Virus record (IMG/VR): IMGVR_UViG_3300028595_000063
Coordinates: 1-21,554 of that record
Strand: one strand, 5' to 3'
Origin: a virus
Length of the DNA: 21,554 nucleotides
Part shown: positions 11,008-21,406 of the stretch, piece by piece
How positions within the stretch are numbered: position 1 is the stretch's first letter
Layout of the letters: each line of letters begins with the position of its first letter
The notes under the pieces: model-generated
The model's database searches: none
The model's input: only the letters and a program-made list of their open reading frames with translations
Told to the model about the DNA's origin: nothing
Translations under genes and position numbers: made by a program

Positions 11008-11121
11008 TTGATTTAATTTAAAATTAATTTCTGCTTCAACGTGTTACTAACACAATCACTCCACAGACTCTACGGGTAACAACTACCCTGTATTTATTAG
11101 ATAATCACTTGGTTATTGTGA
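11008..11121 (-). other. Structured intergenic region with several short hairpins
   Basis: A 114-base gap without a gene. Hairpins that can be read off are TAATCAC...GTGATTA (11102-11108 with 11118-11124, 9-nt loop, overlapping the stop codon of the upstream gene), GGGTA-ACAAC-TACCC near 11074-11088, and GTGTT-ACT-AACAC near 11041-11053. A second AATCAC near 11054-11059 could compete with the first stem. There is no U-tract, so a plain intrinsic terminator is unlikely. mRNA processing or translational control of the 96-residue gene is conceivable. Confidence 0.4.
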
Positions 11122-16240: not shown

Positions 16241-17743
16241 TTATCTATAACCAAAGTTTTCATATTCTCTTTCATTTTGTTCCATTATTTTGTCTTGAGG
16301 ATCATGTCCTAAGACTTTCTCTGTTAATATTAATTGATAAGCTAGACTGTCCATAGTGTCATCGTACACACTTCTAGGAAAGTTATGTAACTCTTCTTCT
16401 AGGTCTTTGCATTCTCCTATAATGTGATATATCTGACCGTTAGAGTATCTAGGTATCAATTGTCTTATTCTTGTGTTCTTAGCCGTTCCGCCATGTTTAA
16501 GCTCTTCTATTGGGAGATATATGTTTCTACGCCTACATTCATCTTCTATGGCTATTTTTAGCCCCTCTGTGAATGCTGTCTTCTCTATTCCTATCTTCTC
16601 AAAGCTTCTCTTGCTATGCATGTCAAAGATATAGTTTATTAAGTCTCTTGAGTTGAGCTTGGTTCTATAACTCTTAATATTCCAGAAGTCATCTACATCA
16701 ATATAATTCTCTGTTATTCCTATAAAGTCACTCTTGTCATTAGGTCTCTCTCTTCCAGCTGTATCAATGGTCATAAACTTCCTTGTCTTCTTGTGTATCA
16801 CCTCTTCTAGTGTCCTATATTTAAACCATCCTTTATTAAATTCTCTCTCTTCATCAGTAATAGGAGTATTCATCATCTCTCTGTTATATGCTTGGTGTCC
16901 TAACAATCTCTTCTTGCTTTCTAGGCTTACTTTGTGTTTGTCCTTATTCTCTATGTCTTTGTTAAACTCCTTTGCTTCTTCATCTGTCTCTGTGTATTTG
17001 CTCTCCCATACTATTTTCCCTTTCTCTACCACTGGTATGTCATACACTCTATATCTTTCATCATCCTTAATCTTTTCCTCTAAGTAGTTAATGCTTCCGT
17101 TAAATGCTAGTCTGTTAGCTAAACATAATATAAAAGCATTGCCTGATAAACCTCCTAAGAGTTCGTCTATATAATCCTTTACCTGTTCTGTTTTAGCTTC
17201 TGATTCTATTGTTGTTAAACTTTCTATATCGTCTAGTATTATGAAGTCTGGTCTGTACTCTCCGTACACTTCTCCTCTGGGAGTCTGTCCTGTTGAATAT
17301 GCTTTAACTTTAATCTTATTTGTAGTGATAAACTCTCCTATGCTTTTCTTCTTACTCTGCTTATCAATATTATCTTCATAAAACAACTGTCCAAAGTCTT
17401 CTATGATCTTTTCGTTAGTCTGTAATTGTAATGCTATATCAAACAAGTTTCCTTCTGCCTTCTTCTTGTCATAGCTAGTCCAGATATTAAAGTGAGTCTT
17501 GCTATAAACTATGTTATGTATTAGCTTGATCTTTGCTATTGATGTCTTTGCTGATTCTCTGAATGTAATTAACAATAATCCCTTTAGCTCTTCATTACTT
17601 AAGTCTTTGTACCATTCCTTATGAAACTCTGGCATTGTGTATTTATGATATTGACTGAAGTAATAAAGGCTAAACAACATCAAAGACTTTTCACAAGCAT
17701 ATATTCTAGTGTCCTTTTTAGCTAGTACTTCTTTTATGTTCAT
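16241..17743 (-). CDS. terL: Terminase large subunit (DNA-packaging ATPase/nuclease)
   Basis: A 500-residue protein that pumps DNA into the procapsid and cuts concatemers. The N-terminal ATPase has a Walker-A-like LITFRESAKTSIAK with FRESAKTS at 61-68, in which Arg/Glu replace the usual Gly-rich turn, a variation known in TerL. Walker B is FIILDDIE at 167-174 (D171, D172 acidic), and CLANR at 207-211 is in the coupling-motif position. The C-terminal RuvC/RNase H-like nuclease shows D327 (FMTIDTAG), E387 (IGIEKTA) and DDTMD at 461-465. Its start overlaps the small terminase stop by 4 bases (ATGA), so the two are translationally coupled. Length is normal and the gene looks intact. Confidence 0.92.
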   Translation of the reverse strand: MNIKEVLAKKDTRIYACEKSLMLFSLYYFSQYHKYTMPEFHKEWYKDLSNEELKGLLLITFRESAKTSIAKIKLIHNIVYSKTHFNIWTSYDKKKAEGNLFDIALQLQTNEKIIEDFGQLFYEDNIDKQSKKKSIGEFITTNKIKVKAYSTGQTPRGEVYGEYRPDFIILDDIESLTTIESEAKTEQVKDYIDELLGGLSGNAFILCLANRLAFNGSINYLEEKIKDDERYRVYDIPVVEKGKIVWESKYTETDEEAKEFNKDIENKDKHKVSLESKKRLLGHQAYNREMMNTPITDEEREFNKGWFKYRTLEEVIHKKTRKFMTIDTAGRERPNDKSDFIGITENYIDVDDFWNIKSYRTKLNSRDLINYIFDMHSKRSFEKIGIEKTAFTEGLKIAIEDECRRRNIYLPIEELKHGGTAKNTRIRQLIPRYSNGQIYHIIGECKDLEEELHNFPRSVYDDTMDSLAYQLILTEKVLGHDPQDKIMEQNEREYENFGYR

Positions 17744-18135
17744 AGGTTATTTGAGTCTATTAATTCATCTACTTCTTGCTTCCTTTCATCTGTTAATGCT
17801 GATAACTCTTTATCATTGCTTGTTAAGTCATTCTCTACTCTAGTGCTAAATTCATGCTTTCTCTTTCTTTCTAGATACTTTAAACTAAATTCTGGATTGC
17901 CTGCTAGTCCCTTTACTACTTCTTGTCTTGCCTTTAGTATTGGTTTTTCTAGTAATCTCTTGCGTATTTCTGCAACCTCTGGTTTCTTTTGTAAAAATCT
18001 AGTAATTGAACTTTCGCTAACATTAGCATAATAAGAAGCCTCTGCATTTGTGCCTCCCATTGCCCAAACTTCTTGTAATTTAGCAAGGATTTCTTCCTCA
18101 CTTTTACCGTCCCATTGTATTCTTCCTGCTGGCAT
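17740..18135 (-). CDS. terS: Terminase small subunit
   Basis: A 131-residue protein. Residues about 13-60 form a helix-turn-helix (EEEILAKLQEVWAMGGTNAE, ASYYANVSESSITRFLQKKP) that would recognise the packaging site. Residues 60-110 have the usual terS tail LLEKPILKARQEVVKGLAGN followed by FSLKYLERKRKHEFS, a pattern typical of small terminases that oligomerise into a ring. The C-terminus is acidic. It directly precedes terL with an ATGA overlap. The gene starts 31 bases downstream of the tRNA-like sequence with the leader AAATATATGCC, so mom, the tRNA and the packaging genes probably share a transcript. Confidence 0.85.
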   Translation of the reverse strand: MPAGRIQWDGKSEEEILAKLQEVWAMGGTNAEASYYANVSESSITRFLQKKPEVAEIRKRLLEKPILKARQEVVKGLAGNPEFSLKYLERKRKHEFSTRVENDLTSNDKELSALTDERKQEVDELIDSNNL

Positions 18136-18165
18136 ATATTTATAATTTAATTGCTTATAAATTTG

Positions 18166-18238
18166 AGCGCCAAGGTCGGGTATGCTCCGCCTCTTTAGTT
18201 ATGGAATAACTATGTGCCACTAATTACACTATTGGCGC
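18166..18238 (-). tRNA. tRNA-Gly(UCC)-like gene with degenerate elbow
   Basis: A 73-nt cloverleaf on the minus strand. The acceptor stem is 7 perfect pairs (GCGCCAA with TTGGCGC). U8 and A9 follow, then a 4-bp D-stem (GTGT/GCAC) with the 8-nt loop AATTAGTG, and a perfect 5-bp anticodon stem (TAGTT/AACTA) with loop ATTCCAT, giving anticodon UCC with U33 and A37. The variable loop is AAGA. The T-stem is 5 bp (GGCGG) with a bulged A at 18176 and loop AGCATAC. The discriminator is U73 and CCA is not encoded. G1:C72, C2:G71, U73, C35 and C36 are the classical bacterial glycyl-tRNA synthetase identity elements. G18 is A, T54 is A, U55 is G and A58 is U, so the elbow contacts are lost. Its first 10 bases overlap the end of the mom-like gene, whose UAG stop is U8-A9-G10. 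Confidence 0.75.
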
Positions 18239-18810
18239 AATCTGTATATAAATAAATGTTTTTCTTCTATTGGGGCATAATCCCACTTATAAGGAACATT
18301 TGAAATCTTGCCCCACTTAGCTCTAACACTTCTTCCGTGAACCTTTTTGTTATTTATAATATAATAAGCATCCTTATTTGTGGTTCTCTCCCCTAAATAT
18401 TCCCAATTTCCTGCTTTGTAAATTGTTCCTTTATGTCCTTGATTGGTTTTATCAGCATAGCTAAAAACTAATTTAATACCAGGATTATGTTTTTTAATTA
18501 ATCTTAAAGTAATGGCTAAAATTTTTGTTGTTGGAGTTTTGTGTTTATTTAATGCTACTCTTACTAACTCACAACATTCTGTTTGTTTTAGTTTAAAGCT
18601 TTTAGCAGCATTATTATTTGCTCCTCTTCCATAAATAACAGTTCCTATAAATTTGTTGTTTTCCCATACACCATATTTCAATAATTTTCCAGAAGGCATA
18701 CTCTGAGAATAATGCCAATTCATAACTGCAAACTTAGAGGCCTCAAATGAGCAAAAATCAATTTTCAAATTCACATCCACATTCTGGACATTTGTTTTTT
18801 TTCTTTTCAT
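18229..18810 (-). CDS. mom: Mom-family adenine hypermodification (methylcarbamoylation) protein
   Basis: A 193-residue protein of the phage Mu Mom type (GNAT-like fold), which converts DNA adenine to N6-carbamoylmethyladenine and protects phage DNA from restriction. Motifs that fit the family are NWHYSQSMPSGK at 31-42, KYGVWENNKFIGTVIYGRGA at 45-64, CELVRVAL at 80-87, VFSYADKTNQGHKGTIYKAG at 115-134 followed by NWEYLG, and VHGRSV at 157-162. The start is uncertain. The ATG at 18810 overlaps the ParB-like gene by 53 bases, while GTG at 18774 or TTG at 18768 would leave the conserved core intact. The last codons are shared with the tRNA-Gly-like gene. The family call is by motif recognition. 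The exact product on this DNA is inferred. Confidence 0.82.
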   Translation of the reverse strand: MKRKKTNVQNVDVNLKIDFCSFEASKFAVMNWHYSQSMPSGKLLKYGVWENNKFIGTVIYGRGANNNAAKSFKLKQTECCELVRVALNKHKTPTTKILAITLRLIKKHNPGIKLVFSYADKTNQGHKGTIYKAGNWEYLGERTTNKDAYYIINNKKVHGRSVRAKWGKISNVPYKWDYAPIEEKHLFIYRLRQ

Positions 18811-19231
18811 CTAATCTTTCAAACCCACTTTCATCTGGTATAAAAGTTGGATCAATTAAATTAATATCAAATCCTGTTAGCTCTATCATTTCAGTATCTA
18901 ATCCCTTTAATTCTTCTATTACTAAGTCCATATCCCAATCACTCTCATTTAATTTATTGTCAGCTAATCTATAAGCCTTTATTTGCTTTTCTGATAAATT
19001 GTCTAGCTTAAGTACTGGTACTTCTTCTAGTCCTAATAATTTTGCTGCCTCATATCTTCCATGCCCTACTACTATTTCATTGTTTTTATCAATAACTATA
19101 GGCTGATTAAAGCCAAACTCCTTTATGCTATTAGCCACTTGCTCTATCTGCTTTTTAGGATGCTTCTTTTGATTCTTTTTGTAAGGCTTTATTTCCTCTA
19201 TCTTGATTGTCTCTCCTGTTACTGCTCCCAT
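18758..19231 (-). CDS. ParB-like (ParB/Srx fold) protein with C-terminal Cys motif
   Basis: A 157-residue protein. The N-terminal ParB domain has IEEIKPYKKNQKKHPKKQIE (about 11-30), VANSIKEFGFNQPIVID (32-48) and the nucleotide-binding box IVVGHGRYEAAKLLGL at about 53-68, followed by a small helical region with YRLADNKLNE. It ends in KCPECGCEFEN (147-157), half of a zinc ribbon. ParB-fold proteins bind CTP or ATP and DNA, and phage versions often accompany DNA modification or packaging genes. It overlaps the mom-like gene and lies 5 bases downstream of a small unknown gene, so it is probably translated with mom. Its role in modification is inferred. Confidence 0.85.
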   Translation of the reverse strand: MGAVTGETIKIEEIKPYKKNQKKHPKKQIEQVANSIKEFGFNQPIVIDKNNEIVVGHGRYEAAKLLGLEEVPVLKLDNLSEKQIKAYRLADNKLNESDWDMDLVIEELKGLDTEMIELTGFDINLIDPTFIPDESGFERLDEKKKNKCPECGCEFEN

Positions 19232-21013: not shown

Positions 21014-21406
21014 TTATTTGTTAAATATTATTATAGCACTTGGAAAAGGTGCTGAATTTTTAGCCCCACCAAATTTTAATCTTCCCTTGATAAATCTTAT
21101 CTCCTTTGCCTTCATTATGTATTCATGCCAATAAATTGTATCTGTTCTACTAGGTATTAACATCACAACAGTTTTGCCTTTTAAGTGTTCATTATAAGCT
21201 TTTTTGCACCAATTTTTTATATCTGAGTATGGTGGATTAACAAAGCTTGACTTTCCCCATTCTATTTCTAAACCATTAAAATCTGGATATTCATTTAATG
21301 GACAAGGATCAAAGTCAAAGTTAAATTCATTGTTTAGTTTATTGTATACATCGTTTGGTGTTTTCCAATTATCACTAGCACTGGAAAACATTACTTTCGT
21401 GTTCAT
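21014..21406 (-). CDS. dam: Phage Dam-type DNA adenine-N6 methyltransferase
   Basis: A 130-residue protein of the phage DNA N-6-adenine-methyltransferase (Dam, PF05869-type) family. It has DNWKTPNDVYNKLNNEFNFD (12-31), DPCP at 33-36, the catalytic NPPY at 57-60 (SFVNPPYS), VVMLIPSRTDT at 80-90, IRFIKGRLKFGG at 103-114 and FPSAIIIF near the end. These are the signature blocks of the family, which transfers a methyl group from S-adenosylmethionine to adenine N6. A classic FxGxG motif is not seen, as usual here. Its ATG overlaps the previous zinc-ribbon stop by 4 bases. The modification may protect phage DNA or set up regulation. Confidence 0.9.
   Translation of the reverse strand: MNTKVMFSSASDNWKTPNDVYNKLNNEFNFDFDPCPLNEYPDFNGLEIEWGKSSFVNPPYSDIKNWCKKAYNEHLKGKTVVMLIPSRTDTIYWHEYIMKAKEIRFIKGRLKFGGAKNSAPFPSAIIIFNK

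Follow-up and report, generated by a model that had tools for sequence, protein, structure and literature searches.

A glycine tRNA-like RNA accompanies phage mom genes and may supply the glycine for DNA hypermodification

The stretch of viral DNA analysed here (hereafter the window) comprises positions 1 to 21,554 of IMG/VR record IMGVR_UViG_3300028595_000063, 21,554 nt in all, and carries on its minus strand a ParB-N domain gene, a mom gene, and a small terminase-like gene, in that order. The mom gene (18229..18810; 193 aa; TAG stop at 18231-18229) encodes a Mom-family GNAT-fold DNA modification enzyme that matches PF25680 at E 3.9e-40 and 138.1 bits (curated Pfam cut-off 27.1 bits) and PHROG 1384 (phrog_1384) at E 8e-46. 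The ParB-N gene (18758..19231; PF02195, E 2.6e-11) lies directly upstream and overlaps mom, and the terminase-like gene (17740..18135; phrog_4102, E 2.4e-5) lies downstream of a tRNA-Gly(UCC)-like RNA at 18166..18238, likewise on the minus strand. As its second gene for DNA modification, the contig encodes a Dam-type N6-adenine methyltransferase at 21014-21406 (-) (PF05869, E 8.8e-22). At a separate site between two genes (11028-11067, minus strand), a sub-threshold Rfam RAGATH-18 match (29.4 bits against a cut-off of 44.9; E 0.063) features both conserved halves and a short hairpin, and its predicted folding is no better than that of shuffles.

The RNA is 73 nt in its mature form without CCA and was recognized both by ARAGORN, as tRNA-Gly(tcc) at 18165-18238(-), and by covariance model R1 (75.3 bits, E 2.4e-15). 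Its 3' CCA is not encoded; the genome reads CAA there. A preliminary description of this DNA, made from the sequence alone, had reported that the end of mom is shared with the start of a cloverleaf with perfect acceptor and anticodon stems and a UCC anticodon, and each of these points was confirmed. The first 10 nt of the RNA (18238-18229) coincide with the final codons of mom and its TAG stop, and the acceptor (7 bp) and anticodon (5 bp) stems are perfect. The acceptor stem pairs GCGCCAA (18232..18238, minus strand; positions 1-7, with G1, C2, and G3 as the glycine identity side) with TTGGCGC (positions 66-72, 18173-18167), and U73 follows at 18166, so that the 3' strand with its discriminator spans 18166..18173. 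The anticodon occupies 18203..18205 (minus strand; positions 34-36); in relatives C35 and C36 are invariant and position 34 varies. Together these features supply the complete bacterial glycine identity set of G1-C72, C2-G71, U73, C35, and C36 (PMC9976931), which the description had pointed out and which also proves to be the invariant part of the wider family.

The same description called the elbow degenerate, and this stands only in part. The window RNA lacks a TTC in the T loop and the canonical GG at positions 18-19 of the D loop, but the T arm (18174..18191, minus strand; GGCGG-AGCATAC-CCGACC) retains a full 5-bp stem, GGCGG/CC-GCC, with a single bulged A at position 63 (18176) that is conserved among relatives. 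The D arm (18214..18229, minus strand) reads GTGT-AATTAGTG-GCAC and is missing altogether in the class II relatives introduced below. The predicted fold reaches -23.7 kcal/mol (z = -2.6), a value equaled by 1 of 200 shuffles. Because the Rfam tRNA model yields no match to the window RNA even at E <= 1, ordinary annotation would tend to overlook such an RNA.

We gathered Mom relatives from viral contigs, bacterial genomes, and phage records. ARAGORN at default settings recovered the RNA in just a few of them and its loose setting returned noise, and covariance models built from relatives of both structural classes were used instead on 166 mom loci (1.13 Mb, both strands). With the class I model, 123 loci each yielded a single RNA next to mom, on the strand of mom everywhere but in L011, and there was no match away from mom in the 1.13 Mb; the class II model found 109, every one at a site also found by the class I model. 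Counted by Mom clusters at 85% protein identity, 102 of 135 have the RNA. The association also holds in the opposite search direction. A motif scan of viral contigs that made no use of mom returned 119 sites. At 111 of them mom lies on the same strand no more than 1 kb away, and the other four that are real RNAs lie close to where their contigs break off, at a distance of 73-298 nt on the side of mom. A complete scan with positions 66-73 unconstrained gave 83 distinct sites, of which 78 adjoin mom. In nine bacterial genomes the strongest matches all adjoin mom, and host tRNA-Gly genes, which are canonical, score lower (<=47 bits), with a few divergent mom RNAs falling within their range. Most RNAs without a mom match lie at contig ends on mom's side, and at two further loci (L282 and L298) Mom genes are present but were overlooked by the Mom profile. 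In these two, the Mom genes (L282:4518-4922 and L298:1749-2321) are divergent, and the RNA overlaps their predicted start, at the 5' end and not the 3' end of the gene. On the Mom tree, the RNA occurs in every deep branch and has rarely been lost; this tree was built quickly and many of its forks have weak support, so we take from it no more than the minimum numbers of changes.

Most closer relatives carry one of two forms at the mom end. Class I RNAs measure 74-78 nt and form a complete cloverleaf. Class II, at 67-71 nt, has no D arm and a short anticodon hairpin that still presents NCC in its loop. Both have a GCG...CGC-U(CCA) terminus and a T stem with the bulge, whose usual sequence is GGCGG-N7-CCGACC. 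On alignments made from sequence only, 98.9% of class I pairs are kept with 120 compensatory cells, and 100% of class II pairs with 50; sliding the partners by 1-3 columns as a control lowers pairing to 26-45%. Absence of the RNA from mom loci and uncompensated decay of its stems had been named beforehand as the outcomes that would count against the idea of a glycyl-tRNA-fed modification, and we looked for both; neither arose.

An initial hand-made scanner had imposed GCG, CGC, and U73, so their invariance in its output was not counted as evidence and was re-tested without sequence constraint. A structure-only search, which asked for an acceptor of 7 bp and for a T stem of 5 bp containing a single bulged base but fixed no letters, gave exactly one match beside mom in 84 of 116 representative loci. 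The match rate per kb is 10-fold higher beside mom than elsewhere in the loci, where it equals the shuffled rate, and the RNA is therefore not a product of chance. Among these 84 matches, G1-C72 and C2-G71 are each present in 82, G3-C70, U73, and the bulged A in 81 apiece, and an encoded CCA in 68. Acceptor pairs 4-7 vary freely and show covariation, and matches elsewhere show no preference at any position. The constrained structure of the RNA, its tie to mom, and a glycylation signal as its invariant part are thus direct observations.

C35-C36 is found in every parsed loop of the family, whereas the wobble base 34 is U in 53, A in 44, C in 4, and G in 3. T-loop position 55 is G in 83 of 107 RNAs, and a TTC T loop survives in 20 of 113. 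The T stem is bulged in about 98-99 of 113 and unbulged in 14, five-base anticodon loops occur, and CCA is encoded in 84 of 113. The D arm has been lost in roughly 40% of the RNAs, recurrently on many branches of the Mom tree, with at least 8 changes forced by supported branches. U73 is also the anti-determinant for D-aminoacyl-tRNA deacylase (DTD) and so shields Gly-tRNA (PMC6097841). Two mom RNAs (L005:5623-5698 and L149:1425-1501) have A73 instead, the archaeal and eukaryotic state. With the elements for glycine charging kept and the features of translation lost, the best reading of these sequences is that the RNA has been selected for glycylation and released from translation.

The placement of the RNA is more flexible. 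Relative to the open mom frame in the 123 loci, it lies wholly inside in 99, overlaps the end in 18, follows in 4, and is on the opposite strand in 1; in L206, L207, and L209 it stands just upstream of mom, and the first two fall among the 99 only since the open frame continues through the RNA. Location alone is therefore not the conserved feature. ParB is upstream of mom in 109 of the 123. In Appavirus, an ordinary tRNA-Gly sits right after mom on the other strand, and its anticodon differs between two phages (UCC and CCC), such that the wobble base changes and glycine specificity stays. Culturable phages with both mom and the RNA include Arthrobacter phages of the Shade/Martha type and Wyborn, Microbacterium phages Appa and Phonegingi, and Salinibacter phage B2_17. 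The suggestion that the RNA is dedicated to Mom holds for most close relatives but not universally. No RNA was found beside the distant Moms checked (Mu, ICP1, K64-1, Darwin, phiSHEF2, LP65, Vegas, and VSiP) or beside some close ones (phiEf11, Paenibacillus, Yersinia, and actinobacterial prophages).

A few RNAs of this type occur in other company. At L416:12970-13045 (-) and at L502-L505, an RNA scoring 70-89 bits follows a ParB gene and stands beside a different phage GNAT (PF22559), which in L503-L505 forms the C-terminal part of a longer protein; no Mom was found at these loci. A second enzyme family may be served by the RNA there. At L406:792-860 (+), a D-armless RNA has a C5-type DNA methyltransferase on one side and a terminase-like gene on the other; neither Mom nor a GNAT is present in the 1.5 kb of sequence covered.

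The base made by Mu Mom is N6-carbamoylmethyl-adenine. Its nucleoside is named as alpha-N-(purin-6-yl)glycinamide in the title of the 1983 report (Swinton 1983; cited in PMC3874153). The AlphaFold (AF2) model of the window protein has a pLDDT of 88.5 and adopts a GNAT fold; a VIA-align fold search places Mu Mom (8bv8) best, with Z 17.6 over 173 residues, and the next rows, at about 13, are ordinary acyl-CoA GNATs. The residues aligned to HYS, R, D, and S124 of Mu Mom are kept, with S124 corresponding to T95 in the window protein. Glycyl-CoA has been the published guess for the Mom donor (PMC7824862). The GNAT loop that binds the CoA pyrophosphate, [QR]xxGx[GA], is absent in 43 of 43 aligned Mom proteins, Mu included. 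As a negative feature this is supportive only, and it weakens the glycyl-CoA suggestion and recalls the GNAT-fold transferases of the FemX type that take aminoacyl-tRNA as donor (PMC12945691). No FemX chain is among the fold-search matches listed, which is no bar to a FemABX relationship.

Overall, we consider it likely that the locus is a two-part DNA hypermodification module, consisting of Mom and its own glycine carrier RNA. The RNA would be transcribed with the mom message and then processed out; in the window, its maturation would cut that message within the last codons, such that one transcript could give either the enzyme message or the carrier. Host glycyl-tRNA synthetase would charge the RNA through G1-C72, C2-G71, U73, and C35-C36. 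The bulged T stem, altered elbow, and often missing D arm would bar EF-Tu and the ribosome, and U73 would guard the glycyl ester against the deacylase. Mom, with its GNAT fold and no CoA-binding loop, would then move the glycyl group to adenine N6 of the phage DNA. N6-glycyl-adenine and N6-carbamoylmethyl-adenine are isomers (C7H8N6O), and we propose that the glycyl amine attacks purine C6 via a five-membered ring and expels the amide nitrogen. Such a Smiles-type rearrangement, for which we found no precedent, would yield the known Mom base without nitrogen from any further source. A Mom that has no RNA beside it would have to draw on host tRNA-Gly. Against the module weigh these Moms, the ordinary acyl-CoA GNATs that are the nearest folds after Mu Mom, and the RNAs of four relatives and one singleton that stand by genes other than Mom. 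The glycyl-tRNA-fed modification put forward in the preliminary description is supported by the co-occurrence, the compensatory changes, and the invariant glycine elements; the transfer of glycine from the RNA by Mom would be an inferred step.

Other accounts of the RNA must be set against this module. One is that it is an ordinary phage tRNA that boosts translation of glycine codons and stays beside mom by inheritance. The correct glycine anticodon, the commonly encoded CCA, and the near-canonical form in Appavirus and a few others would fit, but we regard this as very improbable, since the RNA is tied to mom in both search directions and its bulged T stem, missing TTC, often absent D arm, anticodon loops of five bases, and common A34 are incompatible with a tRNA for translation. 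It is unlikely, though less so, that the RNA is charged with glycine for another end, whether as the substrate of Mom in a GNAT-toxin-like acylation, as a decoy against tRNA-targeting defences, or as a regulator of mom. GNAT toxins that act on glycyl-tRNA are known, and the overlap of the RNA with the mom message, inside the reading frame in most loci, means that processing could limit mom expression. However, the Mom family modifies DNA in Mu and its residues are conserved with Mu Mom, a decoy has no need of a tie to mom, and the upstream and opposite-strand placements speak against a purely cis role.

Alternatively, Mom could use an acyl-CoA such as glycyl-CoA, with the RNA as a structural or guide cofactor, as the GNAT fold, the published prediction (PMC7824862), and the acyl-CoA GNATs among the nearest solved folds would allow. 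The missing CoA loop signature argues otherwise, and a guide RNA would have no reason to retain the exact GlyRS determinants, U73, and CCA; we hold this account to be about as improbable as that of the ordinary tRNA. The cloverleaf might also be a DNA element, such as an attachment site or, close to the terminase, a site for packaging, given that its position is often between mom and a terS-like gene, the window included. This seems hardly credible for a cloverleaf that is strand-specific and covarying, with G-U pairs, identity elements, and CCA; moreover, the reciprocal scan shows that it tracks mom and not terS, and it can stand upstream of mom.

The proposed module of Mom and carrier RNA has partial counterparts in known systems. 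In staphylococci, non-proteinogenic tRNA-Gly species with changed T and D loops, thought to evade EF-Tu, feed FemXAB in peptidoglycan synthesis. By analogy, these cell-wall glycine tRNAs would be the nearest precedent in kind, sharing a dedicated glycine tRNA, altered T and D loops, and a GNAT-fold transferase (FemX: PMC12945691); here the RNA comes from the phage and shares sequence with the enzyme gene, its T stem is bulged, some forms have no D arm, and its proposed acceptor is DNA. Similarly, DhpH, VlmA, and PacB of natural product synthesis are GNAT-fold enzymes that take an aminoacyl group from tRNA, but they have double GNAT domains, small-molecule acceptors, and host tRNAs with no dedicated RNA. 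D-armless mitochondrial tRNAs have likewise lost the D arm and kept the acceptor, anticodon, and T arms, whereas the present RNAs belong to bacterial phages, appear unsuited to bacterial ribosomes, and have a proposed role outside translation. Phage Mu Mom itself (momylation; PDB 8bv8) shares the protein family, fold, and conserved residues; in Mu, mom has no tRNA-like RNA beside it and is controlled by com, whereas here the RNA is in the mom 3' end and ParB is upstream.

To our knowledge, no donor has been established for the Mu Mom modification in the time since its base was solved in 1983. That these loci encode a glycine tRNA of their own points to the donor and renders the question testable in vitro. 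No paper linking mom to a tRNA was found in a literature search that covered mainly open-access journal papers. If the mechanism is true, we know of no earlier DNA base modification fed by tRNA, and aminoacyl groups from tRNA would have DNA as an acceptor in addition to proteins, lipids, the cell wall, and small molecules. With somewhat more confidence than doubt, we propose the wider picture of a widespread phage RNA family, many members D-armless, that would serve solely to carry glycine from host GlyRS to Mom, with DNA as the aminoacyl-tRNA acceptor, the base arising by N6 glycyl transfer and rearrangement, and other phage GNATs (PF22559) possibly sharing the RNA. The RNAs would form a class of their own among non-coding phage RNAs, a new one for the most part overlooked by standard finders, and no D-armless tRNA-like RNA has apparently been described before in a bacterial phage. 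Finally, two bacterial genomes (G004 and G005; Acidobacteriota and Thermoanaerobaculia MAGs) each harbor several mom-RNA loci (L344, L346, L352, L354, L359, and L360), which appear to be separate prophages.
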